Positions 5,031 through 32,021 are shown, numbered from the stretch's first letter. The stretch is DNA of 32,021 bases from a virus (IMGVR_UViG_3300021364_000100:1-32021); one strand, 5' to 3'. Translations and numbers: made by a program. The notes: generated by a model not told the origin, from the sequence alone.

Positions 5031-5045
5031 ATTTCACCAAAACTG

Positions 5046-5074: not shown

Positions 5075-5108
5075 GTAAGAACAATAAGGCACTGAAGGAG
5101 TACACAAT

Positions 5109-8019: not shown

Positions 8020-9132
8020 ATGGGTACTTTAAGAATCAAACGAGGCACCAAAACGGCACTACAAACCAATCCGGGTTATACTCCAGCCGAAGGTGAACTT
8101 GTTTATACCACAGACACAAAAGAAGTATTTGTAGGAGATGGCGCAACAACAGGCGGAACTCCAGTATCTGTATCAACACAGAATTTAGAAGATTTAGGTA
8201 ACGTGCAGGCATTGGCCGCACAGAATGATCAGATCCTAGTATACAACGGATCACAATGGGCCGCTACAGACAACCCAGCTGTAGACGTAAGAGGTAACAT
8301 TTATGCAGACGACTCAACGCTCCTAGTTGATGCTATAAATGGTAAAATTGTAGGCCCTGTAGAAACAAGCTCAGTAACAGCAACTAACCTAGTTGGTAAC
8401 TTAACAGGTGATGTTGTAGGTTCAGTAACAGGTAACGTAGTTGGAAATACAACAGGAACACACTTTGGTAATGTCACTGGTAACGTACTTGGTGATACAT
8501 TAGGAAGTGTTTTTTCAGATGATTCAAGTGTAATGGTTGATGCTGTTGGTAAGAAAGTTGTTGCTAACATTGAATCTCCATCAATAACAACTACTAAAGA
8601 AGTAATTGTAACTTGTGACGCATCTAATGAAGGACTAGTAGCCACTGGTCTTGCAGGTGGTGATTCCACAGGTACAAAAATTATTACTAAAACATCGACA
8701 GGTACTGTAGCCGCACCCACAGCAGTTGTTGGTTCAACAACAGGTAGTGGTCTTTTAGACTTACATGGATTTGGACATGATGGCACAGATTATGTATTAG
8801 CAGGAATGGTTAGAGTTGCCGTAGACTTAGATACTACTGTAGCAACAGGTCAAGTTCCAGGAAGAATTAATTTAATTACTGCAAACAGTTCAGGTAACCT
8901 AGTTAATCTTTTAACTTTTAACAGTGCAGGTAAGTTGGGTATTGGACTACCTAGACCGGATGAAAAATTACATGTAAATGGAAATGCTAAAGTATCAGGT
9001 TTTGTACAATTTGGTAGTTTCACAACAACAGAACGTAATGCACTAACAGCCGCAAACGGTATGGTTATCTACAATTCAAGTGATAATAAATTCCAAGGCT
9101 ATGAAAACGGTGCTTGGGTTAACTTAATCTAA
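8020..9132 (+). CDS. Tail-fibre-like virion structural protein
   Basis: A 370-residue protein behind an AGGAG ribosome binding site. The N-terminus LRIKRGTKTALQTNPGYTPAEGELVYTTDTKEVFVGDG is the short phage fibre N-terminal motif also found in tropism-determinant and hyaluronidase-type fibres. The middle carries GN-x-TG repeats (about 120-160) and a duplicated block (GNIYADDSTLLVDA and SVFSDDSSVMVDA), typical of trimeric beta-structured fibre shafts in marine T4-like phages. The C-terminus (FTTTERNALTAANGMVIYNSSDNKFQGYENGAWVNL) is the common fibre tip segment. It probably contributes to host recognition. The gene overlaps the - strand radical SAM gene by 14 bases at the 3' ends and marks the border of the accessory region. 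Confidence 0.8.
   Translation: MGTLRIKRGTKTALQTNPGYTPAEGELVYTTDTKEVFVGDGATTGGTPVSVSTQNLEDLGNVQALAAQNDQILVYNGSQWAATDNPAVDVRGNIYADDSTLLVDAINGKIVGPVETSSVTATNLVGNLTGDVVGSVTGNVVGNTTGTHFGNVTGNVLGDTLGSVFSDDSSVMVDAVGKKVVANIESPSITTTKEVIVTCDASNEGLVATGLAGGDSTGTKIITKTSTGTVAAPTAVVGSTTGSGLLDLHGFGHDGTDYVLAGMVRVAVDLDTTVATGQVPGRINLITANSSGNLVNLLTFNSAGKLGIGLPRPDEKLHVNGNAKVSGFVQFGSFTTTERNALTAANGMVIYNSSDNKFQGYENGAWVNLI
8389..8499 (+). repeat. GN-x-TG coding repeats in the fibre shaft
   Basis: About seven short tandem units of the type GN(L/V)TGD or GNVxG are encoded here (for example VGNLTGDVVG, SVTGNVVG, NVTGNVLG). At the DNA level they share the core ggtaacNtan and acaggt. Such glycine/asparagine repeats form stacked beta turns in trimeric fibres and can change copy number by recombination. 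Confidence 0.6.
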
Positions 9133-10102
9133 ATTTAGTAATCATTATTTCATCAAGAGTGGTGCAAACTTCTTTGCCGCAGATCGTCCATTCTTCATTA
9201 AATAGTTCTATATCTTTTTCAAATATATTTCCTACAATACCTGTATTAGCACATGTTCCGTATTGAACATCTCCATTTGCTTGTATAAGTATTTTCTTAT
9301 TTGTGATTCCACATTTCCAGCCAAGAAATTTGTTAGTCCTTTTTTGTAGGAAATCAATAGCATTAGTTTCTATTGTATCGTCTACAGTAAAGTTTAAGTA
9401 AGTAGGTGTATCTTGTTTAAGTGTTTCTATAAACTTTAATTCATCTTTAGTATAATAATTTAAATCGCCGTTGTCTAATTTTTGGTGATATCCTTTTAAA
9501 TCTCTGCTTGACTCAAATGTTTGATTAGTTACTTTTGTTACTTTATTATACAAAGGATTAACTGGTATTTTGTATATAGGTGTATCTTTTAGTTTCTTTT
9601 CAAGTTCAAAAATCTTATCAAATAAACCTTGTGCCAACATTGCTCTTACTTCAACGTTACCGTTGTTTTCTTTAATCATGTTCACAAAGTCAACTATTTT
9701 ATCTACATCGGCACTTTCAGGGTGAAAACTAATTTTAATATTAATGTTTTGAAAAGACTCTTTACTGTAATCGTATATACGCAAAGGTAAACTGCCGTTT
9801 GTAAATATTCCAACCCGCATTCCGTTTTCGCCCATATAATTAAACCATCTATGAACATCCTTAATGAGAAACGGTTCACCTCCTGTTATATAAACTAATA
9901 CCGATTTATCTGAAGGAACAGCATCTCTAATTTTTTTTGATGCTTTAATTAAATCATCTACATTAGGTAGTTTTGATTTATTGATTGCAAGATGATTACT
10001 AGGTTCACAATAACTACAATCATAGTTACACATGTCAGTAGGTCGCCAATGTACGATATAATCTTCGTACCAATCAGATTTTTCTATTTTTGATATAGTC
10101 AT
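9119..10102 (-). CDS. Radical SAM enzyme with SPASM-like C-terminal cluster domain
   Basis: A 327-residue protein. The CX3CX2C motif is CNYDCSYC (C25, C29, C32) and ITGGEPF follows near residue 75, so the radical SAM core is complete. The C-terminal part has GWKCG, ANGDVQYGTC, a VGNIF stretch and CGKEVC, the arrangement of a SPASM or twitch auxiliary-cluster domain. Such enzymes modify peptides, sugars or small molecules by radical chemistry. It is the last gene of the TctA-TctC-hydrolase-ANL operon and its start overlaps the ANL gene by 29 bases, so it probably acts on the same metabolite. It converges on the tail-fibre gene with a 14-base overlap. The substrate is unknown. Confidence 0.85.
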   Translation of the reverse strand: MTISKIEKSDWYEDYIVHWRPTDMCNYDCSYCEPSNHLAINKSKLPNVDDLIKASKKIRDAVPSDKSVLVYITGGEPFLIKDVHRWFNYMGENGMRVGIFTNGSLPLRIYDYSKESFQNINIKISFHPESADVDKIVDFVNMIKENNGNVEVRAMLAQGLFDKIFELEKKLKDTPIYKIPVNPLYNKVTKVTNQTFESSRDLKGYHQKLDNGDLNYYTKDELKFIETLKQDTPTYLNFTVDDTIETNAIDFLQKRTNKFLGWKCGITNKKILIQANGDVQYGTCANTGIVGNIFEKDIELFNEEWTICGKEVCTTLDEIMITKFRLS

Positions 10103-11240
10103 TATATAAATCTTTTCTGTTTATTTTACCTTGGCCTTTTCTTTTAATAGAATCAACAGTAAATATTTTCGGTATCTTGTATTTCACTAACTTGTTATTT
10201 AAAAGCTCTAAATTAACTTCGCCTACTACTTCTGCATACACATTATCATATCCAAATACAACTGCATCTGTAGCACCACACTCTAATAATGCTTTTTCAA
10301 CTTCGTATGGCATAATCTTCCAGCCGCCTTTTATAATAATTTCTTTCTTGCGACCTGTAATGAATAAAAATCCATCTTCATCAATATGACCTAGATCTCC
10401 TGTAGCAAATCCATTAACTACTATTTCCTTATCATCTGTAAATGTAACATTCATGCCTTCTAACAAAAAACCTACACTATTGTATTTCTGCGGATAATGC
10501 ATTATACTAATAGTGCCTAATTCATTTACACCATAACTATCAGTAGTTAAACAATTAAAAAATTGTTGTGCCTTAATTTTAAGGTCTTTGTACATAGGAG
10601 CACCTACAGTTCTTATATGCCTTAGCGTCATGTTATCATATGGGACACTAGGATTCATCATGCCTTTCAATACATTTGGACTTCCTATTACAAAAGTAGG
10701 ACGCACTTTAGGCCAATGTTTCCAAGGATCTTTTAGTACATGATATGTTGCTCCGTATTTGTAACAAGCACAAAATGTTTGAAATCCTATACATACCCAA
10801 TATGGAATAAAATTAACAGTGCTATCTTTATCTGTAATTTTAGCATGGATCTGTATGTTATTATCTAAGCCATCAACATCATATTGTTGTTTTGTAATTG
10901 GCACTATTCTAGGCTTGTCTGTGCTACCGCTAGAACATATACCTGCTACTTCATCTTCTTTGCATTGATTAAACTTTGGTTGAGGAATTACATCTTCCCA
11001 TATATCAATGTCGTATGATTGTAATTCAAAAGTTTTAGAGTCTTTATCTACAATTACAGGACTGCATACTTGCATTGCACCAAAAATTTTAAATATATTA
11101 TTCCAATCACTATATATGCCGATACGACAAGTTCTGTCGTATCCTGCGTTTTTTAATTTCTCTGCATAGGTATTTGCTATTTCGTCAAACTCTTGTCTAG
11201 TATAAGATTTGCCGTCTTCAAACTTTAGTACGATGCTCAC
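10074..11240 (-). CDS. ANL-family acyl-adenylate / CoA ligase
   Basis: GTG 11240 is chosen (AGAGGA six bases upstream); a TTG at 11255 would add five residues. The 388 residues carry the adenylation motifs in order: SSGSTDKPRI (P-loop, about 103-112), DSYGVNELGT (A5), ATGDLGHIDEDGF (A7), GRKKEIIIKGGWKI (A8) and KRKGQGKINRKDL with the catalytic A10 lysine. It should activate a carboxylic acid as an acyl-AMP and then pass it to CoA or another thiol or amine. The P-loop has TD where most members have TG, and the N-terminal subdomain is shorter than in typical ligases of about 500 aa. Its operon partners are a tricarboxylate-type transporter and a hydrolase. The substrate is not predictable by eye. 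Confidence 0.85.
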   Translation of the reverse strand: MSIVLKFEDGKSYTRQEFDEIANTYAEKLKNAGYDRTCRIGIYSDWNNIFKIFGAMQVCSPVIVDKDSKTFELQSYDIDIWEDVIPQPKFNQCKEDEVAGICSSGSTDKPRIVPITKQQYDVDGLDNNIQIHAKITDKDSTVNFIPYWVCIGFQTFCACYKYGATYHVLKDPWKHWPKVRPTFVIGSPNVLKGMMNPSVPYDNMTLRHIRTVGAPMYKDLKIKAQQFFNCLTTDSYGVNELGTISIMHYPQKYNSVGFLLEGMNVTFTDDKEIVVNGFATGDLGHIDEDGFLFITGRKKEIIIKGGWKIMPYEVEKALLECGATDAVVFGYDNVYAEVVGEVNLELLNNKLVKYKIPKIFTVDSIKRKGQGKINRKDLYNDYIKNRKI

Positions 11241-11904
11241 GTATTTCCTCTTCAATCATTGTTAGATATTGCATTCTATAATCATTATTGGACTTCAATA
11301 TCGTGCGTAAGGTTTTATGTCCGTAACGTTCACTTAAATATTTATGGTTTGGTTTAAGTTCGTCGAACTCTTGCTGGTCCATAACTCCTTTAGGAATACC
11401 ATAACGAACCATATCAAATTGCCTATCTATATCTGTAATCATAAATGCATGATGAGCTCCTGCCAAATAATAATGCATAGCAGGAGGATGTTTTAATAAC
11501 TCTTTAAATGCATTATATTTGTTCTGTCCAGTGTCTTCAGTACCTACTATTACAGAAGCATTTGTATAATCTTTTTCTAACATAGATTGTGTAAATGCAA
11601 TACAGCCAGGATAGAATAGATAATTATGTACAAATCTTTCGTGATTTATTATACCTAAAAATGCACCTAAACTAAATCCTATATGTATGATATCGCCGTC
11701 TGGAAAATCTACCTTGAACATTTCACTAAATGTGCAATCATGATGGTCTTGGTATTTGCCAGCACCCCATGCTAAGTTTCTTATGCCATACGGAGTAAAG
11801 TAATCAATTAGATGAACTTCGTAACCTTTACTTTCAAAGAACTCGCGAGAGAAGGTTTCAGCTGTGCCAATTCCTCCGCTACCATGTGATATAACTATTT
11901 TCAT
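11218..11904 (-). CDS. Alpha/beta hydrolase, dienelactone-hydrolase-like
   Basis: A 228-residue hydrolase. The N-terminus MKIVISHGSGGIG holds the oxyanion-hole HGSGG segment. The nucleophile elbow is GFSLG (76-80, Ser78), the acid is probably D124 in VGTEDTGQN, and the base is the histidine in GAHHAF (151-152). This order and spacing match the dienelactone hydrolase family, although those often use Cys as nucleophile. It is soluble and cytoplasmic, with no signal peptide. Its start overlaps the TctC stop by ATGA, and its end overlaps the ANL gene by 23 bases. Position between the transporter and the ligase suggests that it processes an imported ester or lactone, or releases an activated product. 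Confidence 0.78.
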   Translation of the reverse strand: MKIVISHGSGGIGTAETFSREFFESKGYEVHLIDYFTPYGIRNLAWGAGKYQDHHDCTFSEMFKVDFPDGDIIHIGFSLGAFLGIINHERFVHNYLFYPGCIAFTQSMLEKDYTNASVIVGTEDTGQNKYNAFKELLKHPPAMHYYLAGAHHAFMITDIDRQFDMVRYGIPKGVMDQQEFDELKPNHKYLSERYGHKTLRTILKSNNDYRMQYLTMIEEEIREHRTKV

Positions 11905-12947
11905 TTTAATGCAAGCTCAATCTTGAATACACTCTTAAGTCCAAGTGCTTCTTTATTGAACCAAACTAAATCTTCTAACGCTTCCGGTGTAACAAAAGTC
12001 ATTAATGTATCTCTATGGGCATTGCCTTCTTTGCCAATTAGCCATTCATACTTTCCGACTTTCTTTTCAATAATAGCACGACTTTCTGCATTATTAGACA
12101 TTTCAGTTAATGCATCTTGTAATTTTTTTGCATTAGGATTGCCTTGGTTTACCCACAATGCTTTTTGCATTCCGTCTCTAAAACTTTTTACAAGTTTATA
12201 AGCATCATACATTTCACCTACAGGATATGCTCCCCACTTTTGTTTGTATAGTTCTTCAAACTGAAAGCCTGGATAGTTAGGATCGTCTGAATGTGATCCG
12301 TCTGCTTGTAGGATGCCATGATGGAACCAAATTTCTGCATTTGCATCTGGCTCAACATGCTTTTTGTATGCCGCTGGATTTTCTCTTGTGCCTGTTAGTT
12401 CGCCACGTTTAAAAGCAAGACGTCTTTCACTTCCGCCCATACCTTTAATCCATTTTACTTTTTTCTTAAAACATGTTGCGTAATATGCAACACCATAATC
12501 GCTTGGACCACAAATTAACATTGCCATTGCATACGCTTCTGGTGTTTGACCGCTACCTGCCGCAAAGCTAGGAGTTGTCATATCTTCACCAATACGTTTA
12601 CCTGCAATAATGTTAAGATTCATTAGTCCAATACTTTCGTACTGACGATAATCATAGTCAACTTCTTCTTGTAAAAAAGCAACACCGTTACCACCATGTG
12701 ATACCATAATTACTTTATCGTCATCACGCATTTCGTTGTGCCATTTATTGAATCCTGGAATATCTCTTGCTCCAGGAATATGTTTGATGTTGATGTTTTC
12801 GCCTAGATACTTTTCAAGTTCTTTAGCAACAATCTCTGCCCAAACACTTGTACCACCGCCTGGCTTTTGAGGTACAACCATTGTATAATCTGCATATGCT
12901 ACTGTAGTAAACATTGCAAATACTAGTCCTAATAATAATTTACGCAT
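11901..12947 (-). CDS. tctC: TctC-like periplasmic solute-binding protein of a tripartite tricarboxylate transporter
   Basis: A 348-residue protein with a clear Sec signal peptide (MRKLLLGLVFAMFTTVAYA, cleavage before DYT). The mature N-terminus VVPQKPGGGTSVWAEIVAKELEKYLG, followed by the IKHIPGARDIPG segment, matches the ligand-binding loops of the TctC/BUG family. These proteins capture carboxylates in the periplasm and hand them to TctA. The length is slightly above the usual 300-330 residues. The gene follows TctA with an eight-base overlap (ATGCGTAA). A periplasmic binding protein is unusual cargo for a phage. The ligand could be citrate, another dicarboxylate or an aromatic acid and cannot be read from the sequence. 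Confidence 0.85.
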   Translation of the reverse strand: MRKLLLGLVFAMFTTVAYADYTMVVPQKPGGGTSVWAEIVAKELEKYLGENINIKHIPGARDIPGFNKWHNEMRDDDKVIMVSHGGNGVAFLQEEVDYDYRQYESIGLMNLNIIAGKRIGEDMTTPSFAAGSGQTPEAYAMAMLICGPSDYGVAYYATCFKKKVKWIKGMGGSERRLAFKRGELTGTRENPAAYKKHVEPDANAEIWFHHGILQADGSHSDDPNYPGFQFEELYKQKWGAYPVGEMYDAYKLVKSFRDGMQKALWVNQGNPNAKKLQDALTEMSNNAESRAIIEKKVGKYEWLIGKEGNAHRDTLMTFVTPEALEDLVWFNKEALGLKSVFKIELALK

Positions 12948-14373
12948 AGTTTATTTTCCTTTTTGATGTTAATCCCCATACTAGTGTTACACCTATTGCA
13001 ACACACAAACCGAGGAATATTGGTTTGTCTAACAGTTTTTCAACTGTATAAAGTCCTGTCATTTGTACCGTTAGTGCTTCTATTCTATCAGATAGAATAA
13101 ATGCAAATAGCAGGGCAGGTCTGCTAAATTTGTATCGCTTGGCAAGTAGTCCTACTATACTACATACCGCAAGCATGAAATAATCTTCCCAACCTCCAGT
13201 GTATTGAACACATGCAAGTACTATAAATCCTAACAATAATGGGAAGTAATATTTGTAAGGTATTTGTGCTATTCGTGCTATAATCGGTGTCGTAAACAAG
13301 CATATAGCGCCTACAAGCACTGTTGCGAGCATAAACCCGTATAACATACTATCAAAGAATTTAGCGTCATTTGCAAGCTCTAAGGTACCCAATTCAAAGT
13401 CCAAATATGCAAATAGTCCAATTACAATAGCCGCAAAACTTGCTCCTGGTATTCCAAATAATACTGTAGGAATCATACTTGTTGCTTTTTGTGCATTGTT
13501 GGCTCCTTCAGGTCCTATTACTCCTTTGATATTACCATTACCAAATTTGTCCTTAGGGTGGCTTGCAACTGTAGAACTATAGGCCATCCAGTCTGCAACT
13601 GCACCTCCTAGTCCTGGTAGTAATCCTATAAAGGCTCCTATGAAGCCGCCTCTCATAGCGTCCCACTTATTATGCCAAACAGCTAATATTCCTTGTTTAG
13701 TTTGTTTGCCATTTGCAAGTGCTACCATACTTGTATTTGTCCTTTGCTTCAAACCATCAAGTAGTTCTGGTATTGCAAATAGTCCTGCAACTAAAGGCAT
13801 AAGTTGTACGCCGTCTCCGAGATACTCCCATCCACCTGTCCATCTATCTGCATTGGTGCTAGGATCAACTCCAATCAATCCTACAAACAATCCTATGCAT
13901 AATGCTAACAAACTTCTAAACCAAAATTTGTTTGTAACAAATGTAACACAAACTAATGCTAACATTGTAAATGCCCATAGTTCAGGCACACCAAAAATCA
14001 TTATTAGTTGTGTGTAATATGGTAGCAAGAAGAAAGTCAACGATCCCCATAACAATCCGTTAAGTGTGCTTGTTGTTACTGCTGAACTTATTGCATAAGT
14101 TGCTTTGCCTTGTAACGCTAAAGGAAAGCCATCTATCATTGTTGCCGCGGCACTGTTCGCACCAGGTATACCTAACAATACACCTGTGTAAGTGTCACCT
14201 GTTGTACTTGCGGCTACAACTGCCATAACAAATATTACTGCTAGATACGGATCTGGAAACAGTGTAATAAATGAAAACACAAATATTAAACCTGTAGTTG
14301 CACCTGCTCCAGGCAGGATGCCAATTATTAATCCGTATATTGTTCCTGCAAGTAATGCCAATACTGAAGCCAT
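12940..14373 (-). CDS. tctA: TctA-like permease of a tripartite tricarboxylate transporter
   Basis: A 477-residue, highly hydrophobic protein with about ten or more membrane segments. It begins ASVLALLAGTIYGLIIGILPGAGATTGL, the G-x-LPG-x-G signature of TctA, and repeats the same pattern in the second half (GFIGAFIGLLPGLGGAVADWMAY). Other family landmarks are LLGIPGANSAAATMIDGFPLA and VLFGIPGASFAAIVIG. The length is near the family norm of about 500, so it appears complete. ATG 14373 has AAGGAA about seven bases upstream. TctA normally works with the small TctB subunit; no TctB is present in the window, so the phage may rely on a host TctB or work without one. It should sit in the inner membrane and import a carboxylate. 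Confidence 0.9.
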   Translation of the reverse strand: MASVLALLAGTIYGLIIGILPGAGATTGLIFVFSFITLFPDPYLAVIFVMAVVAASTTGDTYTGVLLGIPGANSAAATMIDGFPLALQGKATYAISSAVTTSTLNGLLWGSLTFFLLPYYTQLIMIFGVPELWAFTMLALVCVTFVTNKFWFRSLLALCIGLFVGLIGVDPSTNADRWTGGWEYLGDGVQLMPLVAGLFAIPELLDGLKQRTNTSMVALANGKQTKQGILAVWHNKWDAMRGGFIGAFIGLLPGLGGAVADWMAYSSTVASHPKDKFGNGNIKGVIGPEGANNAQKATSMIPTVLFGIPGASFAAIVIGLFAYLDFELGTLELANDAKFFDSMLYGFMLATVLVGAICLFTTPIIARIAQIPYKYYFPLLLGFIVLACVQYTGGWEDYFMLAVCSIVGLLAKRYKFSRPALLFAFILSDRIEALTVQMTGLYTVEKLLDKPIFLGLCVAIGVTLVWGLTSKRKINYA

Positions 14374-14385
14374 GCTTTTTCCTTC

Positions 14386-14403
14386 TATATAATTAATTAT
14401 ATA
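14386..14403. promoter_or_regulatory. 18-base perfect AT palindrome in the divergent TctA / methyltransferase region
   Basis: TATATAATTAATTATATA is a perfect palindrome in the 87-base gap between the divergent TctA (14373, -) and methyltransferase (14461, +) genes. Flanking TTCCTT and AAGGAA extend the symmetry imperfectly, and on the - strand the AAGGAA acts as the TctA ribosome binding site. It could supply a -10-like element in both directions or an operator. A hairpin near the start of both transcripts is the alternative. Confidence 0.45.
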
Positions 14404-14460
14404 AGGAATATACTTTTTTGAAGAAAAGTGGAATTTTTTTAAAAGAAAGTGAAAAAAATT

Positions 14461-16570: not shown

Positions 16571-16742
16571 CAGTAATCTTCTTGGCTAATTTGTAAGGTG
16601 TAAAAGCAAATAAAAAAGGAAATATGGCATGTATTGTGCCAGTTATAAAGACTAATAGAGCTAGTATATTAAAGTACATAGCATAGAAGAAGTGTTTAAA
16701 ATAATTTGATTGTACTTTTTTTAGATGATTCCATTCTATCAT
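16536..16742 (-). CDS. DUF6356-like small membrane protein
   Basis: A 68-residue protein with one or two membrane segments (FNILALLVFITGTIHAIFPFLFAF). The pattern HLKKVQSNYFKHFFYA, then G-x-IHAIFPFLF, then a short basic tail, matches the DUF6356 family of small bacterial membrane proteins, whose function is unknown. The start overlaps the halogenase stop by ATGA and the end overlaps the ANL-core gene. It may tether or assist the halogenase-ANL pair at the membrane; this is inference from position only. Confidence 0.65.
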   Translation of the reverse strand: MIEWNHLKKVQSNYFKHFFYAMYFNILALLVFITGTIHAIFPFLFAFTPYKLAKKITDGTEKHFKKRN

Positions 16743-18943: not shown

Positions 18944-19008
18944 TCTTGTTCTCCTGTCACTATATTACTTATTTTGCTTCAGCATTGCATACAAGCAATA
19001 TGGCACAT

Positions 19009-19016
19009 AATAAATA
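19009..19016 (+). promoter_or_regulatory. Late promoter candidate (AATAAATA) before the + strand nitroreductase
   Basis: AATAAATA is in the 98-base divergent gap, 26 bases before the GTG at 19042. It is a one-base variant of TATAAATA with the same spacing as the candidates before 2966 and 8020. A + strand promoter is expected here because the two + genes are isolated within a - strand region. Confidence 0.45.
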
Positions 19017-19041
19017 TGTATAACAAATTAAGGAGACTATT

Positions 19042-24369: not shown

Positions 24370-24377
24370 AATAATAT

Positions 24378-25052: not shown

Positions 25053-26124
25053 TTACAGTATCCTTTACAATATCTATAATTTGTTTTACTTCATCGTCAG
25101 TAAGCCACGCATGAATAGGTAAGGATAAAACAGTATCTGATGCTGTCTTAGACTGCGTACAAGCGTCACGTCTGCTGTCTAATGACTCATACATGCTATT
25201 TGCACTCAAAGGCTTTTCATAGTGTATACTAGCACCTAAGGCGTCTTTAACACGCTTTCTAGTATTCTTATCTAACAAGCGTATTACATATTTGTGATAG
25301 TTATGGTTCAACCCATTTGACATTTCTTGCACTGCAATGGGTAAGCCTGCAAATGCTTCATTGTAAGTCCTAGCAATTTTTTGTCTACGGAATTGATTCC
25401 GTTCTGCAAATTTTAATCTTTGATTTATAATTTCTGCATTAAGCACATACATTCTGCTATTGTAGCCTAACATACTAAAGTCTTTATCTTTTCCATGTCG
25501 TCTTATTGCTTTTATGCGTTTTGCAATCTTACTGCTATCAGTAAGCACAACTCCGCCGCCATTAATACCAGCAATAACTTTATTACTGTTGAAACTGTAT
25601 ACTGAACAATCACCTATAGTGCCTGCTTTTATTCCATGTAAACTACTGCCTAAACTTTGAGCGGCATCTTCTATAAACAAGATACCTCTGTCTTTGCAAA
25701 ATTCTTGTATTTCAGTTGTGTCTGTCATATTACCAAATAGATGCGGATATATGATTGCCTTTACTTTATTAGAATACATACGCTTAATACTTTCTAGACA
25801 CATATGATAACTATCTAAATCAATATCACAGAATACAGGAGTAGCACCTACCATACTTACTACAGCTGAACTACTAATCCAACTAAAGTCAGTAACTAAA
25901 ACTTCATCGTCTTGACCAATATTGTGAGCTAATAAAGCAAAATGCAAAGCATCAGTAGCACTTGCAACACTTACACAGTATTCTCTACCAACACGGATTG
26001 CAAAACTTTCCTCAAACTTTTCATTGTTTTCATAATTAGTTTGTGACATAAATCCTTCAAATATATCAAGATATGCCGATCTATTTTCTTTATACTCTCT
26101 ATCCCATCCGTCATACGATATCAT
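25042..26124 (-). CDS. DegT/DnrJ/EryC1/StrS-family PLP aminotransferase
   Basis: A 360-residue aminotransferase. VASATDALHFALLA (53-66) is the PLP-phosphate loop, FIEDAAQSLGSS (150-161) carries the Asp that contacts the PLP nitrogen, and YSFNSNKVIAGINGGG (176-191) carries the Schiff-base lysine K182. The C-terminal half (NAEIINQRLKFAERNQFRRQKIARTYNEAFAG, in short) is the usual small domain. These enzymes transfer an amino group to keto-sugars in deoxyamino-sugar or aminocyclitol pathways. It follows the SPASM gene with no gap (TAA then ATG) and an AGGGA ribosome binding site. With the glycosyltransferases nearby it points to an amino sugar, but the sugar dehydratase is not in the window. Confidence 0.88.
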   Translation of the reverse strand: MISYDGWDREYKENRSAYLDIFEGFMSQTNYENNEKFEESFAIRVGREYCVSVASATDALHFALLAHNIGQDDEVLVTDFSWISSSAVVSMVGATPVFCDIDLDSYHMCLESIKRMYSNKVKAIIYPHLFGNMTDTTEIQEFCKDRGILFIEDAAQSLGSSLHGIKAGTIGDCSVYSFNSNKVIAGINGGGVVLTDSSKIAKRIKAIRRHGKDKDFSMLGYNSRMYVLNAEIINQRLKFAERNQFRRQKIARTYNEAFAGLPIAVQEMSNGLNHNYHKYVIRLLDKNTRKRVKDALGASIHYEKPLSANSMYESLDSRRDACTQSKTASDTVLSLPIHAWLTDDEVKQIIDIVKDTVNDI

Positions 26125-26463
26125 TTATATTTCCCTTACACGTTTAAATTTTCTATTAGAAGTATTGATATGTTCATCTCTCCTAACACCTTTTCCTTTT
26201 TCTTTTACAGAACAAGTTGTCATACAAGCATTAGGTCCTTTGTGTCTTGTCAAGTTCTTGTAAAATCTTTTCCATTGCTTTTTTGCTAAAATTTTTTCAA
26301 TACTTTCATTGTCGTCTAACTTACTAACAGCCATTAATTTTTGGAATTCTGGATCTCTCAATGTAGGTGGATCATCGCAATAACAGCACGGAAGTAAATA
26401 TCCTTGATTGGTTACTGCTAATGGAAATCCTTCAAAACATGCTGGCTTTAATTTTACTGTCAT
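26125..26463 (-). CDS. Stand-alone SPASM-like iron-sulphur domain protein
   Basis: A 112-residue protein with LKPACFEGFPLAVTNQGYLLPCCYCDDPP at the N-terminus (C9, C26, C27, C29) and NACMTTCSVKEK at about 79-90. The C-x-(n)-G-x-LPCC-x-C ... C-x3-C spacing is that of a SPASM or twitch auxiliary-cluster domain, with no radical SAM core. The gene upstream encodes a core without SPASM, and the two overlap by ATGA. They probably act as one enzyme made of two chains. A five-A run just before the overlap would allow -1 slippage to fuse them, but this is speculative. Confidence 0.7.
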   Translation of the reverse strand: MTVKLKPACFEGFPLAVTNQGYLLPCCYCDDPPTLRDPEFQKLMAVSKLDDNESIEKILAKKQWKRFYKNLTRHKGPNACMTTCSVKEKGKGVRRDEHINTSNRKFKRVREI

Positions 26464-27089
26464 TGTTTTTCCAATCTAAATTCGTCTAATGTTGGTTTAT
26501 ATGGATCATTAGGACCACTCCATCTTGAACTAATTAATTTATAAAAATTAACACCTATAGAATCAGCTAGTTGGATTGCTTCGTCTATATCGTTTTGGTT
26601 ATAACGAAAAACTATGTACTGCCAAGTAGGTTTGATTTCAAGATAATTTACAGATTCTTTCATAACATTGAATAGTTTTTCGCCGTCTTGGTTAATTCTG
26701 TATTGATGACTGTCCTTTGGTAGCCCGTCTATACTAAAAACCCATCTAGCATAAGGATGTGCTTTGAATGCCTTGATATACCATTTTAATGATTTAACTG
26801 ATGAAGCATTATGTATTTCCACTCTAACGTTTTTAGCATAACTTTTTTCTAAAAATTCTATAAATTTAGGATGGTGTACTGGATCAGAATACTGTCCTTC
26901 AAAATCAATATATTGCATAAAATTTACAATTTTTTCAAAGTTACTATCCGAAAGATCTTGTCCGGGTACTTTTAATCCTTTATTCCTGTATATAAATTGT
27001 CTAGGACAATTAGGACATTCTATAGCACATCTGTGAGTAAGATCTAAATTTACGCTACGCCTATTCCAAAATGTGTTATCTCTAATCAT
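26460..27089 (-). CDS. Radical SAM core protein, partner of the SPASM gene
   Basis: A 209-residue protein. The cluster motif is CAIECPNC (C21, C25, C28). Where most family members have GGEP it has FEGQYSDPVHHPKF, a variant seen in a phage-associated radical SAM subgroup. WVFSIDGLPKDSHQYRIN and WQYIVFRYNQNDIDEAI follow as later core strands. It ends before any auxiliary-cluster domain; the next gene supplies one. The start overlaps the glycosyltransferase-like gene by eight bases. The substrate is unknown. Confidence 0.78.
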   Translation of the reverse strand: MIRDNTFWNRRSVNLDLTHRCAIECPNCPRQFIYRNKGLKVPGQDLSDSNFEKIVNFMQYIDFEGQYSDPVHHPKFIEFLEKSYAKNVRVEIHNASSVKSLKWYIKAFKAHPYARWVFSIDGLPKDSHQYRINQDGEKLFNVMKESVNYLEIKPTWQYIVFRYNQNDIDEAIQLADSIGVNFYKLISSRWSGPNDPYKPTLDEFRLEKQ

Positions 27090-27936
27090 TAAATTGTCCT
27101 AACGCTTGTTCAATAGCTGTTATATCAGGTGTGCTTGGTTGTCTGTCCCAATAAACAGTTCCGCCGTCATTCATATTTTTGTCTCTTGCGTAAATTACTT
27201 TTTTATTAAAGTATTTACATTCCTGAAAAATCCTTGGTGCTGGATCAAATGTATCTTTTGTGTATACATAAGTGTTGAACAAACTCATCAAATTTTTTAC
27301 AGGAACAAATATGTTGTTATTTTTAGGATTGATATAATCAGCATCATATGTCAAAATACCATGATCTGGATATTGATCAATTATTTTCTCAACTGTTGCA
27401 TAATACTTGTCGTTGGTTCCTAAAAATAAATGTTCAAATTGTACGTCATCTTTGTGCTTTTTATAAATGTCAAAGTTAATTGTTTTTTCAAAATGTATTC
27501 CTACACCATTAGGATATACTTCTTTATCACATAGGTCTATAATCTTTTCCGGTTCATAAAATTCTACTGCCAGTGGATATTTTGTAGGATGATTTTCTGA
27601 ATAAACACTAATAACATTACCTGCAAACAAAGTACGTAGGATCATTTGTTGTTGCATAGTGTAACTATCAAAGTCTTGGTAACTAAGAGTCATCATACTT
27701 CTACCCATAATTAGTGTAGCGTCACCTGTCCAACCGTCTAATGAATTAAACAAAACATTATGTTGATGTATGTACTTGTACTTCAATACATCTAAGTAAT
27801 CTTGCTGTGTAAAGTTCCTGTGTGTAATTACAATTACTCTTGCTTTTATTCCTAAACTATTTAAAAGAGAGCAATATTCATAACTGTAATAAAAAAGTCC
27901 GTCTACAGGTTTACTTGTTACAACAATATTAAGCAT
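27082..27936 (-). CDS. Putative glycosyltransferase, GT-B-like (284 aa)
   Basis: A 284-residue soluble protein. The N-terminus (MLNIVVTSKPVDGLFYYSYEYCSLLNSLGIKARVIVITHR, in short) is the Rossmann start typical of GT-B enzymes. The C-terminal segment DPAPRIFQECKYFNKKVIYARDKNMNDGG reads like the sugar-nucleotide-binding E-x7-E/K region of GT4-like enzymes. The central part is less clear and the protein is shorter than most GT-B proteins (about 350 or more), so the call is moderate. It is embedded in a run of glycosyltransferase and radical SAM genes with eight-base overlaps on both sides. Confidence 0.5.
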   Translation of the reverse strand: MLNIVVTSKPVDGLFYYSYEYCSLLNSLGIKARVIVITHRNFTQQDYLDVLKYKYIHQHNVLFNSLDGWTGDATLIMGRSMMTLSYQDFDSYTMQQQMILRTLFAGNVISVYSENHPTKYPLAVEFYEPEKIIDLCDKEVYPNGVGIHFEKTINFDIYKKHKDDVQFEHLFLGTNDKYYATVEKIIDQYPDHGILTYDADYINPKNNNIFVPVKNLMSLFNTYVYTKDTFDPAPRIFQECKYFNKKVIYARDKNMNDGGTVYWDRQPSTPDITAIEQALGQFND

Positions 27937-28612
27937 TGAATTTTTCCTTTAACCAATCAAAGTCATTTATTAGCCGAAGGTCAGCCCCGCTAGAAAGGCC
28001 AAACTCCATACCAGCCCTAGCACCTCGAATCGCATACTCACAAAATCTTCCATTAGCCTTAGTAGTCCATATTTTGAGTCTTTCATTTGTTTCTCCTTCG
28101 TCTTGTCTATCAATTACTTTACTGCTTAACTTTGCACATTCTCTGAATGCACTTTTCCATGTGCTAAATTCATCTGTGTTAAAAAATGTAATATTAGATA
28201 CTTCATTCATAACTTTAAAGTTTTTACTAATACTTGTTGTCATATCACTACTGCTTGTATCTAAGTTCCTTGTAAGTTGTGTTGGTAAAAGTTTTACGCC
28301 TCCGTAACCGTATGCTAGATCATTTATAGGATTTATACTTGTCCATACATGCACTACATCTTCAACTAAGTTAGGAACTACGTAATCAAAATTAAAACTA
28401 TCTAATACTTCTGCATCTCCGTCAACAACATAAAAATAATCTGTATTAGCAATTTTAGCCGCTTCAATATGAGCGTTGTGTATTCCTTTTACATTTTTTA
28501 CACGTTTTACTCTATCACCAAACACACCTGTACTATTATATCTAGTATAAAGATCTTTGTACAAATCATCTGCGTTGGGCTCATAGTAACTAATGAAAAC
28601 TATATCATACAT
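27929..28612 (-). CDS. GT-A-like glycosyltransferase (227 aa)
   Basis: A 227-residue protein starting MYDIVFISYYEPNADDLYKDL, with YFYVVDGDAEVLD carrying a DGD metal-binding motif at 64-66. The same arrangement (I-F-SY-EPNA ... VDGD) occurs in the gene at 29958, so the two are paralogues. GYGGVKLLPTQL probably lines the acceptor site. It should transfer a sugar from a nucleotide donor in the cytoplasm. It overlaps the twitch radical SAM gene by 13 bases. Confidence 0.65.
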   Translation of the reverse strand: MYDIVFISYYEPNADDLYKDLYTRYNSTGVFGDRVKRVKNVKGIHNAHIEAAKIANTDYFYVVDGDAEVLDSFNFDYVVPNLVEDVVHVWTSINPINDLAYGYGGVKLLPTQLTRNLDTSSSDMTTSISKNFKVMNEVSNITFFNTDEFSTWKSAFRECAKLSSKVIDRQDEGETNERLKIWTTKANGRFCEYAIRGARAGMEFGLSSGADLRLINDFDWLKEKFNA

Positions 28613-29958
28613 GCTTTACAGTCCTCTAAAAAATTATTCATTTCTGGAAATGTCTCTACAAAATTTGTACCACGCCTTTTATCGTATTGCTGTATCCATT
28701 CGTAAAACATACGTCGACCTTCTATAGCTTCTGTTTCAAATTCTTCAGGTTTGTCATGCCTTACATTTAAATCAGCAATGATCCTTTGCATTTTTTGTAT
28801 TTCTATATTTGAAAATTTATTCTTTTTCATTAAAGATACACAAGGATATAGATATTCTTGGACTAGATCATAAGTGCTAATCTTAGCATCTAGAAATCCT
28901 GGGCTCTTGACATATGGTATATCTACTATTGTTCTTTGAAATTCTTTTTTATAATATTTGTTTTTTAAATCTGCAACATATTGTAAAAAATGATAAAAAG
29001 TAGGAATACTTAAAATGTTAAATGCACTCATAAAACTACAAACACCTTTTGTATTATCTAAGTAATATTTAACATTACTTGTAAACATATCCCAATCCAT
29101 ACCAAATCTATTGTATTCTTGTTGTGCTCCAACACCTTCGGCACTTACAAAAAGAATAAACTGTTTGATGCATTTTTTATCTTCTAAAACTTTAATCTTA
29201 TCTACAAACTGTTTCCATAGGTCGCCTGGAGGACAAGCATTTGAATTTATTGAAAATTCTAAATTAGGCTGTGGATTGTTCATCAAATGATCAATTACTT
29301 TATTTGTATGTTTACTCATGAGTGGTTCACCACCTGTTATTCTAAAAGTATGCATGTGTTGTACTGCATCAGGAAACCATTTCCAAAATGCTTCTATGTA
29401 TGGATTAGTTTCTCTTTCAGGAATTTGTTTTTGATATTCGTCAGGTTGATTATATTTCCAATTAGTTGACTCAAATTTATAAGCACCGTGTTCTCTAATT
29501 TCATCACCCCATTTACTACTAAATGCAGGACCACAGTATCCACATTTAAAATTACATACATTACTAAAACTTACTTCTACATATGTAGGGTAAAAATCCT
29601 CATCTCCGGTTAGATTCTTAATTGTGTCATAGTGCGGCCAACTAAAACTATCACCACTTTTCCAAATTCTATCACTAGTCATACCAGTATTATCTTCAAT
29701 ACGCCAACAATAACTGCACTCGTTTGGACGTTTGTTGTCAAGCATTTCTTTTCTTATATTTTTTTTGAACCCCGTATTATGCAATACACTTGGATTTGTT
29801 GCAAGATCATTTAAATCTATAGGATGAGCTTTTACATGATGACAACTTTGTGTTAGTCCTGAACCTAAGTGCATTGTAACCTGTGTCCATTTGGCAAGGC
29901 AAAAGCCGCAACCGACAGCGTCAAGTTTCTGTTTTACTACTGTTGGCTCTTCACGCAT
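28600..29958 (-). CDS. Twitch-domain radical SAM protein (452 aa)
   Basis: A 452-residue protein. An N-terminal cysteine-rich module comes first (GCGFC at 16-20, QSCHH at 38-41, NECSYCWR at 79-86). It is followed by the radical SAM core with NVCNFKCGYCGP (C135, C139, C142) and FRITGGEPL (205-213). The C-terminal half has no further cysteine cluster except near the end (DCKACMI). An N-terminal rather than C-terminal auxiliary-cluster domain is the layout called twitch-domain radical SAM, frequent in marine T4-like phages. It lies between the two paralogous GT-A genes and overlaps both, so it probably modifies the same glycan or its acceptor. Confidence 0.82.
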   Translation of the reverse strand: MREEPTVVKQKLDAVGCGFCLAKWTQVTMHLGSGLTQSCHHVKAHPIDLNDLATNPSVLHNTGFKKNIRKEMLDNKRPNECSYCWRIEDNTGMTSDRIWKSGDSFSWPHYDTIKNLTGDEDFYPTYVEVSFSNVCNFKCGYCGPAFSSKWGDEIREHGAYKFESTNWKYNQPDEYQKQIPERETNPYIEAFWKWFPDAVQHMHTFRITGGEPLMSKHTNKVIDHLMNNPQPNLEFSINSNACPPGDLWKQFVDKIKVLEDKKCIKQFILFVSAEGVGAQQEYNRFGMDWDMFTSNVKYYLDNTKGVCSFMSAFNILSIPTFYHFLQYVADLKNKYYKKEFQRTIVDIPYVKSPGFLDAKISTYDLVQEYLYPCVSLMKKNKFSNIEIQKMQRIIADLNVRHDKPEEFETEAIEGRRMFYEWIQQYDKRRGTNFVETFPEMNNFLEDCKACMI

Positions 29959-30872
29959 TAATTTTCTCTGTCAATTACCTTGTTACTAATTACTCTACCA
30001 AAATTATTATTCACTGCTTTGAAAAATGCACTTTGCTCTTCATTCAAAGGTTGCGTAGCAATAGGAATTTCTAACTCATTTATTAACTGATTGCCACTGT
30101 TGAATATTTCAGAATGTAAAACATCATCAGGCATTTCTTCTCTTCCTGCAAATAATTCATTTAAGTATTGAAAATCTCTTACATTTGTATAATCCCAATC
30201 AGTTAGCATTGTCATTACTAATCCTTCTCGAGCTCCTGCAATAGCCCAATATCCATTAGATATATCAGCACCTACCATCATCCAAATATACAACATGTTT
30301 AAGTTTTTAGCATGACCTACTATAAACTCTTCTTTGCTTATTCTTACTCCTCTATCAAGAGCTAATTTAACGCCTTCTCTAAAACCAGCACGCCAAGCCT
30401 GTTGTGGTGTTTCATTATTGTGTACATCTGAATAACAACTATTTTGTTGAATATAATTTATGTCCCAACAAAAATCTACTTGTGCATGTGGATTATTTGG
30501 ATCTGCATTTTCATGTGTACGCATATTCAACACGTATTCTTTAGGCCAACATTTAAGTCCGCCGTTGCCATACATTAATCCGTTTATTGTATTTTTTCCA
30601 CACCAGCTTATTACACTATTTTCTAAATCAGTATGTTCATCAAAGTCTAATACTTGGTCGATAAAATCTTGACGTATAGTATTGTCACCGTCAACTGTAA
30701 TAAATCTATCTGTTTCTGACAATTCTGCACAGGCTTTGTGAGCGGCATCTGAACCTTCTACACCATGCACACGTTTTGCCCACGGAACTTTTGTAAGCAA
30801 ATCTGCATAATTTTTTTCTGCATTAGGCTCATCGTAACTTAAAAATATAATATCCAGCTCTGCAATCTTCAT
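29958..30872 (-). CDS. GT-A-like glycosyltransferase with C-terminal extension (304 aa)
   Basis: A 304-residue protein. ELDIIFLSYDEPNAEKNYADLL and RFITVDGDNTIR (DGD at 61-63) match the gene at 27929, and GNGGLKCWPKEYVLNM parallels its GYGGVKLLP segment. It has an extra C-terminal 70 residues (from about 235) absent from the shorter paralogue. A strong GAGGAG lies before the ATG, and the start overlaps the upstream stop by TAATG. The donor and acceptor are unknown. Confidence 0.68.
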   Translation of the reverse strand: MKIAELDIIFLSYDEPNAEKNYADLLTKVPWAKRVHGVEGSDAAHKACAELSETDRFITVDGDNTIRQDFIDQVLDFDEHTDLENSVISWCGKNTINGLMYGNGGLKCWPKEYVLNMRTHENADPNNPHAQVDFCWDINYIQQNSCYSDVHNNETPQQAWRAGFREGVKLALDRGVRISKEEFIVGHAKNLNMLYIWMMVGADISNGYWAIAGAREGLVMTMLTDWDYTNVRDFQYLNELFAGREEMPDDVLHSEIFNSGNQLINELEIPIATQPLNEEQSAFFKAVNNNFGRVISNKVIDREN

Positions 30873-31399
30873 TATATCTCCTCATACACACAACGCAACG
30901 ATTTGCTGTCTGTGAATATGCTATACGGCTTATCCAATTTTATTTCTAATTCCAACTTATCACCTACTTTGTAATCTACAGATTCAATAAGAAAATGCGG
31001 ATCGTCTTTTTGTGTTATGCTAAACATAATATTTGCATCAAACTTGACATTAGATAAACCTTCGATTGTACTAATATAACATAAATCCTTCTTTTTGTCA
31101 ACAGAAAAGACTACATCAAAATATGGGTCTTTACGTTTTTCTTGTAATTGATGAAGTACAAATTGATTCTCATCTTCGTTGTTTTCAAGTTTCCTTAGTT
31201 CGTGCCGTTTTGTTACAGAGCTAAAAATAACTTTATAATCTTCCATTTTGTCTTTGAATGTCTTAATAGGATATGCTTGTTCTTCTGTAATTTCAATATG
31301 TTGATATCCTTCTTCCTGGCTGGGACCAATAGCGTAAATTTCTCCTGAGTCGGGATTGAAAGATACATATTGTTTCGTTTCAACTTTTATACTATGCAT
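30872..31399 (-). CDS. Conserved hypothetical phage protein (175 aa)
   Basis: A 175-residue protein starting MHSIKVETKQYVSFNPDSGEIYAIGPSQEEGY. It is acidic and beta-rich, with a charged helix in the middle and a C-terminal beta domain (FLIESVDYKVGDKLELEIKLDKPYSIF). Proteins beginning with a similar NPDSGEI-AIGP segment occur in marine T4-like phages, sometimes next to glycosyltransferases, but no function is known to me. It is coupled to both neighbours by short overlaps (eight bases and one base). Confidence 0.6.
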   Translation of the reverse strand: MHSIKVETKQYVSFNPDSGEIYAIGPSQEEGYQHIEITEEQAYPIKTFKDKMEDYKVIFSSVTKRHELRKLENNEDENQFVLHQLQEKRKDPYFDVVFSVDKKKDLCYISTIEGLSNVKFDANIMFSITQKDDPHFLIESVDYKVGDKLELEIKLDKPYSIFTDSKSLRCVYEEI

Positions 31400-32021
31400 A
31401 TTTTCCTATCACCTCTTCACAAAATTTGTGTTCTACATAATGAAAAACTCCAGACTGTAAATAATTTCCTATCTTTAGATTACAATTATCATCTATATAA
31501 AAAGGTATATCTTGCATCCAAGATCCGTTTGTAACCTTCCACTCCTGCACACGTGGTTTCATATGAACAAAATTTAAACTGTTTATTTCGTATTTTTGTA
31601 GATTACTATTCAAGACAGCAATAGCATGATTGACATCCATGCTTGATACTTTAGGTTTGAGTTTTTTCAAATATATATTATAAAAATCTTCTGTGTGCTT
31701 ACAAACAAGTTCAAGATGTTTGTAATAATCTAAAGCAATATGATCTTGTCTAAAGTAATGGAATGCATTGTAAATATTTGGTAAGTTATTTTTTACAAAT
31801 ACTTGTCTGTAAAAATCATCAACAATAATATTTCCTCTATAAGTTTTTGCATCATTTAAAAATGCTACACTGCGTCCTTGTAAATTATCCCAGATGTAAT
31901 CAACGTTACTTAGAAATATTATGTCTGTATCTAAAATTATAGTTTCTTCATATGGTGTTACATGAAATACTTTCCATCTATGTTCTGTGCTATAAAAGCT
32001 CTTATCTGATCTTCGTTGCGG
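31392..32021 (-). CDS. Glycosyltransferase, GT8-like, C-terminal part (5' end outside window)
   Basis: The frame is open from the right edge (32021) to the stop at 31392-31394, giving 209 residues with no internal stop and no start in view; a TTG at 31670 is not a real start. The visible sequence has YEETIILDTDIIFLSNVDYIW, a D-x-D motif (DTD at residues 31-33 of the fragment) in the setting typical of GT8-type and related GT-A glycosyltransferases. RSVAFLND and YRGNIIVDDFYRQVF follow. The C-terminal part (MQDIPFYIDDNCNLKIGNYLQSGVFHYVEHKF, in short) is the acceptor side. The gene is cut by the window, so its length and first domain are unknown. Confidence 0.72.
   Translation of the reverse strand, partial: PQRRSDKSFYSTEHRWKVFHVTPYEETIILDTDIIFLSNVDYIWDNLQGRSVAFLNDAKTYRGNIIVDDFYRQVFVKNNLPNIYNAFHYFRQDHIALDYYKHLELVCKHTEDFYNIYLKKLKPKVSSMDVNHAIAVLNSNLQKYEINSLNFVHMKPRVQEWKVTNGSWMQDIPFYIDDNCNLKIGNYLQSGVFHYVEHKFCEEVIGKYA

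Follow-up and report, generated by a model that had tools for sequence, protein, structure and literature searches.

An enzyme-rich island beside the fibre genes of a virus possibly related to jumbo phages comprises three separately inherited cassettes

The 32,021-base stretch of DNA analysed here (the window) is an entire virus record of IMG/VR (IMGVR_UViG_3300021364_000100). From position 9119 to its last base, 32021, it carries an island of tightly overlapping genes that lie nearly all on the − strand, and that a preliminary description of the DNA had read as a complete biosynthetic gene cluster of a phage. The 23-kb run itself is borne out, with the exception of three + genes at 14449-15186, 19042-19983 and 19983-20687. 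Comparison with relatives shows that the island consists of three separately inherited cassettes, in which the core genes are ordered together and are under purifying selection. Cassette A spans 9119-18943, cassette B 19042-27936 and cassette C 27929-32021. Families were called from whole-protein Pfam E-values against curated cut-offs for 27 island proteins, with PHROGs and NCBIfam alongside; the SGNH, GFSLG and 2-oxoglutarate (2OG) motifs were read by eye. Labels such as rSAM1-4 for the radical SAM proteins and GT1-4 for the glycosyltransferase-like proteins were coined in this analysis, and handles such as G001 or L019 denote related contigs and pieces.

The core of cassette A lies on the − strand. 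Its sulfotransferase-fold protein (15175-15927) gave an AlphaFold model with a pLDDT of 91.5, for which the best Foldseek matches are sulfotransferases (E 2.4e-3); VIA-align superposes 184 residues on 5wrj (Z 11.1, root-mean-square deviation 4.4). The protein has a P-loop-like GxGGHxxGR motif and a conserved R149, which are not mapped to known sites for 3'-phosphoadenosine 5'-phosphosulfate (PAPS). The next gene encodes ANL2 (15890-16570), a short ANL enzyme of 226 amino acids (aa) that matches Pfam (5e-10) at profile positions 170-378 of 384. Thus, it stops at the end of the AMP-binding domain and is without the C-terminal domain. It is followed by a small DUF6356 membrane protein (16536-16742; PF19883, 1.9e-10) and, beyond a variable slot described below, by a GNAT-fold acyltransferase (17805-18326). 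The latter has no Pfam match, and its fold is recognized from an AlphaFold model (pLDDT 91.5) that retrieves GNATs in Foldseek (3.4e-5, probability 1.00); the 50 matches listed are described as acyl- or acetyltransferases or as relatives with the same fold.

These genes stay together far beyond the window. An ANL2 profile finds 144 matching stretches in IMG/VR, of which 80 were taken as loci (64 were left out) and fell into 45 groups at 90% identity. Grouping here and in the survey of cassette B uses the identity of one protein, ANL2 or Carb, and several loci end near the query gene. Neighbours were counted in one locus per group within three open reading frames (ORFs), and distant windows in 43 loci served as control. 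GNAT stands beside ANL2 in 38 of the 45 groups against 1.8 expected, DUF6356 in 29 against 2.3, the sulfotransferase-fold protein in 29 against 1.0, and a second P-loop family, SFT13a, in 19 against 4.1. The two enzymes of the variable slot are rarer neighbours, the halogenase being found in 3/45 groups (0 expected) and a class IV aminotransferase in 3/45 (1.8 expected). Judged against the control windows, core A therefore consists of GNAT, DUF6356, ANL2 and the sulfotransferase-fold protein. The transporter genes tctC and tctA (TctCA), MT1, ANL1, the hydrolase-like gene, rSAM1, the 2OG oxygenase and the halogenase are additions to this core. A search of 50,697 phage records for ANL2 and the sulfotransferase-fold protein gave, at its sensitivity, no match.

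The slot lies between GNAT and ANL2. In the window it holds a flavoprotein of the Trp-halogenase family (16739-17812, − strand; Pfam 4e-58), which is replaced or absent in relatives. A halogenase of the window type occupies the slot in the window, G001, G002, G006 and G003/G004, and in G008 there is a halogenase only 26% identical to it. G022, G015 and G016 carry a class IV aminotransferase (2.7e-35 for the G022 protein), G017 carries a 151-aa protein, and the slot of G020 is empty, with DUF6356 alone. The G003/G004 halogenase is 79% identical to that of the window, while ANL2 is 54% and TctA 47% identical, which suggests that the halogenase gene alone was exchanged at the same place. The protein has the nucleotide-binding GxG motif, with G6 and G8 invariant, and K69 is invariant in 5/5 aligned phage sequences; it aligns with the position of the catalytic Lys of PrnA, which we take to be K79. 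There are also weak matches to maturase models of the GoxB/LodB type. Its dN/dS is about 0.03.

The remaining genes of cassette A flank this core. The radical SAM protein rSAM1 (9119-10102, −; Pfam 5e-11) is optional in relatives. ANL1 (10074-11255, −; Pfam 1.7e-20) is an ANL ligase with a C-terminal domain, whose matches to NCBIfam acyl-CoA ligases reach the model ends, none of them at cut-off. In G017 (L166, 88494-90111), a second core-only ANL copy of 174 aa, again without the C-terminal domain, precedes ANL1. An alpha/beta-hydrolase-like protein (11218-11904, −) is called by eye from its GFSLG motif and had no family or PDB match. The TctC-type substrate-binding protein (11901-12947, −) is a weak call (PDB TctC E 0.21, BugD E 0.31; no Pfam match at 0.01) with an N-terminus that resembles a signal peptide by eye; a TctC homologue adjoins TctA in 33 of 38 TctA loci. 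The permease TctA (12940-14373, −), of the tripartite tricarboxylate transporter family, is matched over profile positions 2-422 of 423 (Pfam 2e-93) and has a dN/dS of about 0.04. TctB, the small subunit, was not seen among the Pfam-scanned neighbours, with no search aimed at it. Reading divergently from TctA is the methyltransferase-like MT1 (14449-15186, +; Pfam E 0.004), which accompanies TctA in 35/38 loci, and two of the three misses begin inside or within 200 bases of TctA. Among named phage records TctA occurs in 7 only, at 26-29% identity, and no cultured carrier was seen. At the other end of the cassette lies an Asp/Asn beta-hydroxylase-like 2OG oxygenase (18323-18943, −; Pfam 2.6e-4, just under cut-off; dN/dS about 0.03).

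Cassette B opens with two + strand genes (19042-20687), encoding the nitroreductase NTR1 (Pfam 2e-5) and, from 19983, an SGNH-like protein recognized by eye. All its other genes are on the − strand. The core comprises MT2 (20665-21342), a methyltransferase-like phage family called by eye without a Pfam match; Carb (22055-23533; Pfam 6e-68, PF02543 and PF16861), an O-carbamoyltransferase of the NodU/TobZ type; the radical SAM protein rSAM2 (23530-24369; Pfam 1.5e-8); and a DegT aminotransferase of the sugar/cyclitol type (25042-26124; Pfam 4e-84). Between these lie the nitroreductase-like NTR2 (21333-22073; Pfam 4e-4) and NTR3 (24378-25052; Pfam 2e-4), the latter unconserved in sequence (31% identity to G001, 27% to G008). 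A SPASM protein (from 26125; Pfam 4.6e-4, below cut-off) and rSAM3 (from 26460; PHROG 5.5e-13) fill 26125-27089, followed by GT1 (27082-27936), which is glycosyltransferase-like by eye only and has no PDB profile match. PDB matches of Carb include GdmN (3e-52) and TobZ (2.6e-45), and its score against the NodU equivalog model (1.1e-38) is far below the model cut-off. DegT is matched best by scyllo-inositol transaminase (5.5e-54), and also by QdtB (1.6e-49) and WbpE; its match to the PseC model (7e-57), like that to LegC, is below cut-off. A scan of ten proteins for defence systems gave matches for rSAM2 only, to viperins (9e-10), and these are far below the NCBIfam cut-off; a viperin assignment was rejected.

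For cassette B, 224 stretches related to Carb were available, of which 80 were taken as loci (144 were left out), giving 44 groups at 90% identity. Since these loci were picked by Carb similarity, the counts, made without control windows, give linkage and not abundance. rSAM2 is found in 39 groups, MT2 in 39, DegT in 38, GT1 in 32, SPASM in 30 and rSAM3 in 30. rSAM2 lies directly upstream of Carb in 30/44 groups, and MT2 lies no more than 1.8 kb downstream of it in 38/44. When the order is read from the longest locus of each group, using the first DegT and the last MT2, it is DegT-rSAM2-Carb-MT2 in all 31 groups that have the four genes on one strand; in the other 13 of the 44, one of the four is missing or the genes are on both strands. 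A cultured SAR11 phage, Pelagibacter phage Mosig EXVC030M (MT647606.1; Kyanoviridae), has the same cassette, which lies there in the same order between the fibre genes and VrlC. Identities there, in order, are 30% for an NTR3-like protein, 54% for GT1, 52% for rSAM3, 35% for SPASM, 54% for DegT, 58% for rSAM2, 57% for Carb, 67% for MT2 and 53% for NTR1. That the order is kept in another phage lineage at such divergence argues for one function. Mosig differs from the window in having NTR1 and Carb on one strand, as these are on opposite strands in the window, and its 29.5-kb region compared holds no match for TctA, ANL or halogenase. The part of the Mosig genome note consulted makes no mention of these genes (PMC7892664).

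Cassette C (27929-32021, −) is cut by the window end, and tail-fibre genes adjoin it in relatives. It encodes a GT2-like protein (27929; Pfam 0.006, below cut-off), rSAM4 (28600; Pfam 7e-6, below cut-off), a GT3-like protein, the protein u30872 and a GT4-like protein. PDB searches with profiles containing 27082 and 27929/29958 found no glycosyltransferase. The gene u30872 (30872-31399), located between two glycosyltransferase-like genes, diverges faster than its neighbours, with 31% identity to G001 compared with 74% for GT3.

The separate inheritance of the cassettes is seen in 21 contigs and pieces, the window included. As TctA served to find most of them, it is present in 20; the exception is G025. 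Half of these 20 have ANL2, GNAT and the sulfotransferase-fold protein beside TctA (the window, G001, G002, G006, G008, G015, G016, G017, G020 and G022). Carb, rSAM2, DegT and MT2 are found in seven (the window, G001, G002, G008, G017, G020 and G025), and G006 ends within cassette B. Within the 40-60 kb compared, G022, G015 and G016 have cassette A and lack B, except for a 27% identical MT2-like protein in G022 and G015. Cassette B occurs without A in G025 (40 kb compared), in Mosig and at most Carb loci as far as their flanks reach. TctA lies in only 1 of the 44 Carb groups; this is a lower bound, since the sequence on either side stops within 10 kb and the TctA of G002 and G017 is located just outside it. 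The orientation also varies. Compared with A, the entire cassette B has the opposite orientation in G020 and G017. In G002 its two halves are opposed: rSAM2, Carb and MT2 have the direction of A, and DegT, rSAM3, SPASM and GT1 the reverse. The contig G003 has its A-type genes at 93-104 kb and its GT4-, GT3- and rSAM4-like genes at 52-59 kb, 34-51 kb apart; the latter are 4-9 kb downstream of a 3432-aa homologue of a 5002-aa protein of G001. G013 and three shorter pieces (L019, L029 and L031) have TctA, TctC and MT1 but no A core. For each of G009, G015, G016 and G022 (L128-L135, L139-L140), the stretches compared near TctA encode 11-13 radical SAM proteins, and CxxxCxxC is present in every one.

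The genes are thus not co-inherited as one unit, as those of a single biosynthetic gene cluster would be, and the proposal of one complete pathway fails because relatives split the block into three. The preliminary description had named conserved synteny in other phages as support for one pathway, and scattered genes with independent gain and loss as its refutation. The outcome lies in between: parts of the block behave as units in other phages, and whole cassettes, not single genes alone, are gained and lost. Its interpretation is therefore partly supported, and its list of enzymes partly confirmed. Four radical SAM proteins are present, all with CxxxCxxC, two of them above the Pfam cut-off (9119 and 23530), one below it (28600) and one recognized by PHROG only (26460). 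Both ANL enzymes (10074, 15890), the carbamoyltransferase, DegT and the TctA transporter are above their Pfam cut-offs, and the GNAT call holds at the level of the fold. Of the three nitroreductases only NTR1 is above cut-off. The 2OG oxygenase (about 3e-4) is weak, as is the first of the two methyltransferases (14449), which is below cut-off, and the second (20665) has no Pfam match. Among the four glycosyltransferase-like proteins 27929 is marginal, and 27082, 29958 and 31392 have no Pfam match. The halogenase belongs to its family, with reservations given below. Absent from the earlier list are the DUF6356 membrane protein, the sulfotransferase-fold protein, the weakly assigned TctC-like protein and the two putative hydrolases read by eye (11218 and 19983). 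The position beside fibre genes is real.

The same gene order is seen in G001, G006 and G008 as far as the contigs extend, G008 being without rSAM3 and SPASM and having the other halogenase. Pairwise dN/dS values against these three are mostly 0.02-0.2. Higher values, 0.22-0.38, were obtained for g7014, SPASM, GT2 and GT4 against G001 and for Carb against G006, where the gene is cut by the contig. Four pairs below 35% identity were skipped (the halogenase and NTR3 with G008, NTR3 and u30872 with G001), so that NTR3 has no value, and dS is saturated for DegT with G001 and GT4 with G008. The low dN/dS indicates that the island enzymes are maintained, with most genes under purifying selection.

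The + strand to the left of 9119 holds phage genes, among them those for an exonuclease, a MoxR-type ATPase, a VWA protein and a fibre protein. The ATPase and the VWA/DUF2201 protein (3881-6392) are conserved phage genes. For the latter (5109-6392), PHROGs and several phage records use the name 'HNH endonuclease', although Pfam gives it metallopeptidase-like and VWA domains. The fibre-type protein (8020-9132, +) has an Mtd_N domain (PF18454, E 3e-11), forms the left edge of the island and adjoins it in relatives too. The sign of the GC skew flips at about 9119, and the GC content is 35-39% in the left flank and 31-38% (mostly 31-35%) in the island. On the right, the block continues past the window end, so that its edge lies outside. 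In the close relative G001 the island is bordered by baseplate genes and tail-fibre-type proteins, and a late sigma factor is encoded beyond them; the cut of the window is thus within cassette C. The island occupies a variable site, flanked by a small fibre gene on one side and by the tail-fibre/baseplate genes on the other. The island is hypervariable, lies by tail-fibre genes and is flanked by conserved modules, as in host recognition clusters of the pelagimyophage type.

Judged by two core proteins and gene order, the phage may be a myovirus distantly related to the PA5oct-type jumbo phages. Pseudomonas jumbo phages of the PA5oct type share 50% identity with G001 in the SbcC-like protein and 42% with the window in the VWA protein, and PA5oct (Arenbergviridae) has the same exonuclease-ATPase-VWA order. 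The earlier comparison with T4-like phages was thus loose, as the nearest named relatives by these two proteins are PA5oct-type phages. The annotation of PA5oct names no comparable enzymes within 9 kb beyond its VWA gene. From its relatives, Mosig and a Pelagibacter-binned contig, the habitat is presumably marine. The T4-type late promoter core TATAAATA occurs 0 times in the window compared with 6.2 expected from shuffles, although G001 encodes a gp55-like late sigma factor.

A search for sources outside phages covered bacterial genome samples that all lie within one phylum, with a positive control for MT2 only. MT2 was found in 0/385 genomes of the class of a Pelagibacter metagenome-assembled genome (MAG), and in 6/6 virus records of the control, Mosig being in the query alignment. 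rSAM2 was found in 0/247 and 0/398 genomes, GNAT in 0/299 and the sulfotransferase-fold protein in 0/197. No DNA nearly identical to the window is present in the phage collection. TctA-family proteins occur in 110/247 genomes of the order of a Pelagibacter MAG, the best reaching 333 bits compared with 660 for the MAG contig C36. This 7.9-kb Pelagibacter-binned contig (C36/L169) is probably misbinned phage DNA: besides TctA it has TctC, MT1 and a relative of a G009 P-loop gene, in a phage-like order. A cellular TctA in an Omnitrophota MAG (L168, 465-4604) is 54-59% identical to phage TctA and overlaps a methyltransferase-like gene; two further such genes lie upstream by eye, which echoes the link of MT1 and TctA in phages. 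The scan of genome contigs for TctA used two exact patterns and may have missed many relatives.

We suggest, at about even confidence, that this composite island of three cassettes alters the envelope glycan or lipid of the infected cell, which would block rival phages, and/or the fibres of the virion. Modification of envelope or virion is the most likely role, with a chemistry predicted from protein families. The DegT sugar/cyclitol family and the GdmN/TobZ-type family of Carb point to cassette B building an aminated, carbamoylated and methylated sugar or a similar unit. DegT would turn an NDP-4-keto sugar of the host into an amino sugar, Carb would then O-carbamoylate it, MT2 would methylate it, and the radical SAM and nitroreductase proteins would reshape the sugar. 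The ANL, GNAT, DUF6356 and sulfotransferase-fold proteins suggest that cassette A handles an acyl or aminoacyl group, which it would activate and then transfer close to the membrane. Here the short ANL enzyme would activate a carboxylate as its adenylate, supplied in this lineage by TctCA, and GNAT would transfer it next to DUF6356 at the membrane. The group may be varied by the sulfotransferase-fold protein and by the enzyme in the slot (a halogenase, a class IV aminotransferase or none). Cassette C would act on the fibres. Swapping of cassettes would alter the surface chemistry, as expected under competition for receptors or in superinfection, and variable content beside fibre genes is the expected outcome of such surface competition, as proposed for pelagimyophage islands in the part of that report consulted (PMC7029224). 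A more specific version, in which core A is an undescribed inner-membrane machine for acyl or aminoacyl transfer, is tentative and rather unlikely. ANL2 would form the adenylate only, and GNAT would transfer directly onto an envelope lipid or glycan, with feeding by TctCA and diversification by the slot in this lineage.

Several observations weigh against a role in surface modification or against its details. The halogenase of the window has WLWSIS in place of WxWxIP, which we take to be the motif of flavin-dependent tryptophan halogenases, and an Asn (EPLNAT) at the position of the conserved Glu of PrnA, presumably E346; this Glu is kept in the G008 and L032 proteins. The window protein may thus not halogenate. 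For the sulfotransferase-fold protein, guanylate kinases come close behind among the structural matches, one of them with Z 9.3, and no PAPS site is apparent in the fold. Three of the four putative glycosyltransferases are without family support, and no sugar-nucleotide pathway or flippase was recognized in the window. Beside ANL2, TctA is found in 4/45 groups (3.3 expected) and 2OG in 6/45 (4.4 expected), so that, in the absence of overall enrichment, their tie to core A holds in this phage lineage only. A and C are not cleanly separate in G003, where a GT2-like gene (43%) is found 3 kb past TctC. The PDB matches of Carb are GdmN, a novobiocin enzyme, TobZ and one unnamed carbamoyltransferase, mostly antibiotic enzymes; together with scyllo-inositol transaminase as best match of DegT, they also fit a small molecule. 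The relatedness of the phage rests on two proteins, and its host and habitat are inferred.

The position of cassette C bears on whether the enzymes instead decorate the fibres of the phage itself, with transfer by C. It abuts tail-fibre genes in G001, the G003 genes like GT4, GT3 and rSAM4 lie near the 3432-aa homologue and away from the A-type genes, and an Mtd_N fibre gene stands at the start of the island. A and B, however, are not linked to fibre genes in all relatives, the transporter and the DUF6356 membrane protein suit the cell envelope better, and the glycosyltransferase identity is weak; we regard this possibility as fairly unlikely. The enzyme content would also suit a diffusible secondary metabolite, a toxin or signal, made by the island or by cassette A. 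Proteins of the halogenase family and the ANL, 2OG, GNAT, carbamoyltransferase and sulfotransferase-fold proteins are of types typical of tailoring, a carboxylate could be moved by TctA, and a halogenated product is predicted for phage S-SSM6a in the part of Iyer et al. 2021 consulted (PMC7824862). We consider such a product unlikely, given that A and B are inherited separately, that the carbamoyltransferase is paired with a sugar-type aminotransferase, and that no polyketide synthase (PKS), non-ribosomal peptide synthetase (NRPS) condensation or carrier domain was found by Pfam at E 0.01 in the 27 island proteins; precursor peptides were not searched.

Neighbours in the island might also not act together at all, as in a hot spot of unrelated auxiliary genes. 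Content does differ strongly among relatives, copies of NTR3, SGNH and rSAM genes come and go, the contigs rich in radical SAM proteins fit such a picture, and so does the lack of enrichment of TctA and 2OG near ANL2. Yet the order of the core genes is kept across divergent phages and Mosig, and core A stands far above its control windows. At the level of the cassette cores this explanation is largely refuted, and it still applies to the accessory genes and to A, B and C as a group; for the island as a whole we give it little chance. It is very improbable that TctCA is simply a nutrient auxiliary metabolic gene (AMG) that feeds carboxylates to the infected cell, with the rest unrelated. TctA, TctC and MT1 do occur without the A core in the four contigs and pieces named above, and tctA has been reported on virus contigs of SUP05, with no role given in the part consulted (Roux et al. 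2014, PMC4164917). In 10/20 TctA contigs, on the other hand, the ANL2, GNAT and sulfotransferase-fold genes adjoin TctA, and the Pfam-scanned neighbours include no TctB.

An island of this kind is already known, and core A is its least expected part. The earlier statement that no phage pathway of this composition has been described was partly right. As far as the consulted part of Iyer et al. 2021 goes, a 10-gene cluster was predicted in the jumbo cyanophage S-SSM6a, and decoration or a secondary metabolite was proposed (PMC7824862). Compared by description only, that cluster shares with the island a Trp-type halogenase, carbamoyltransferases, 2OG oxygenases and methylases; it differs in that a HemK-like methylase, a cupin and HAD phosphatases are named for it, and ANL, TctCA, DUF6356, DegT and radical SAM are not (PMC7824862). 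The annotated genes around the halogenase of P-SSM2 differ from the island, as compared by annotation and not by sequence. The host recognition cluster of pelagimyophages, for which superinfection exclusion was proposed, is likewise large and hypervariable; it contains fibre genes and glycosyltransferases, to which radical SAM cassettes are added in a single pair of genomes (Zaragoza-Solas et al. 2020, PMC7029224). It is bordered by VrlC and gp14 and belongs to a different phage group, and the part consulted describes no conserved enzyme order (PMC7029224). The VrlC of Mosig had no blastp match among ORFs of more than 1000 aa in the compared contigs. The SUP05 contigs resemble the island in carrying a TctA-family gene in a marine virus; this is a domain match only, from the part of the report consulted, and the contig was not compared with the window (PMC4164917). 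Moraphages were considered and, from the part of the report consulted, are not relevant to the island (PMC12619734). A literature search at the level of titles and abstracts, without most subscription journals and bioRxiv preprints, found no description of core A or of the order of cassette B among the papers listed.

The findings from this study replace a vague 'AMG hot spot' by two defined, ordered enzyme cassettes, one of which is present in a cultured SAR11 phage. Thus, the role of radical SAM, carbamoyltransferase and halogenase genes in such phages becomes testable. The DUF6356 membrane protein beside ANL2 belongs to a Pfam family of unknown function. If core A is the transfer machine proposed above, the virus would run its own uptake, activation, tailoring and surface attachment. 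If the island does modify surfaces, the swapping of cassettes would amount to modular serotype conversion in phages.

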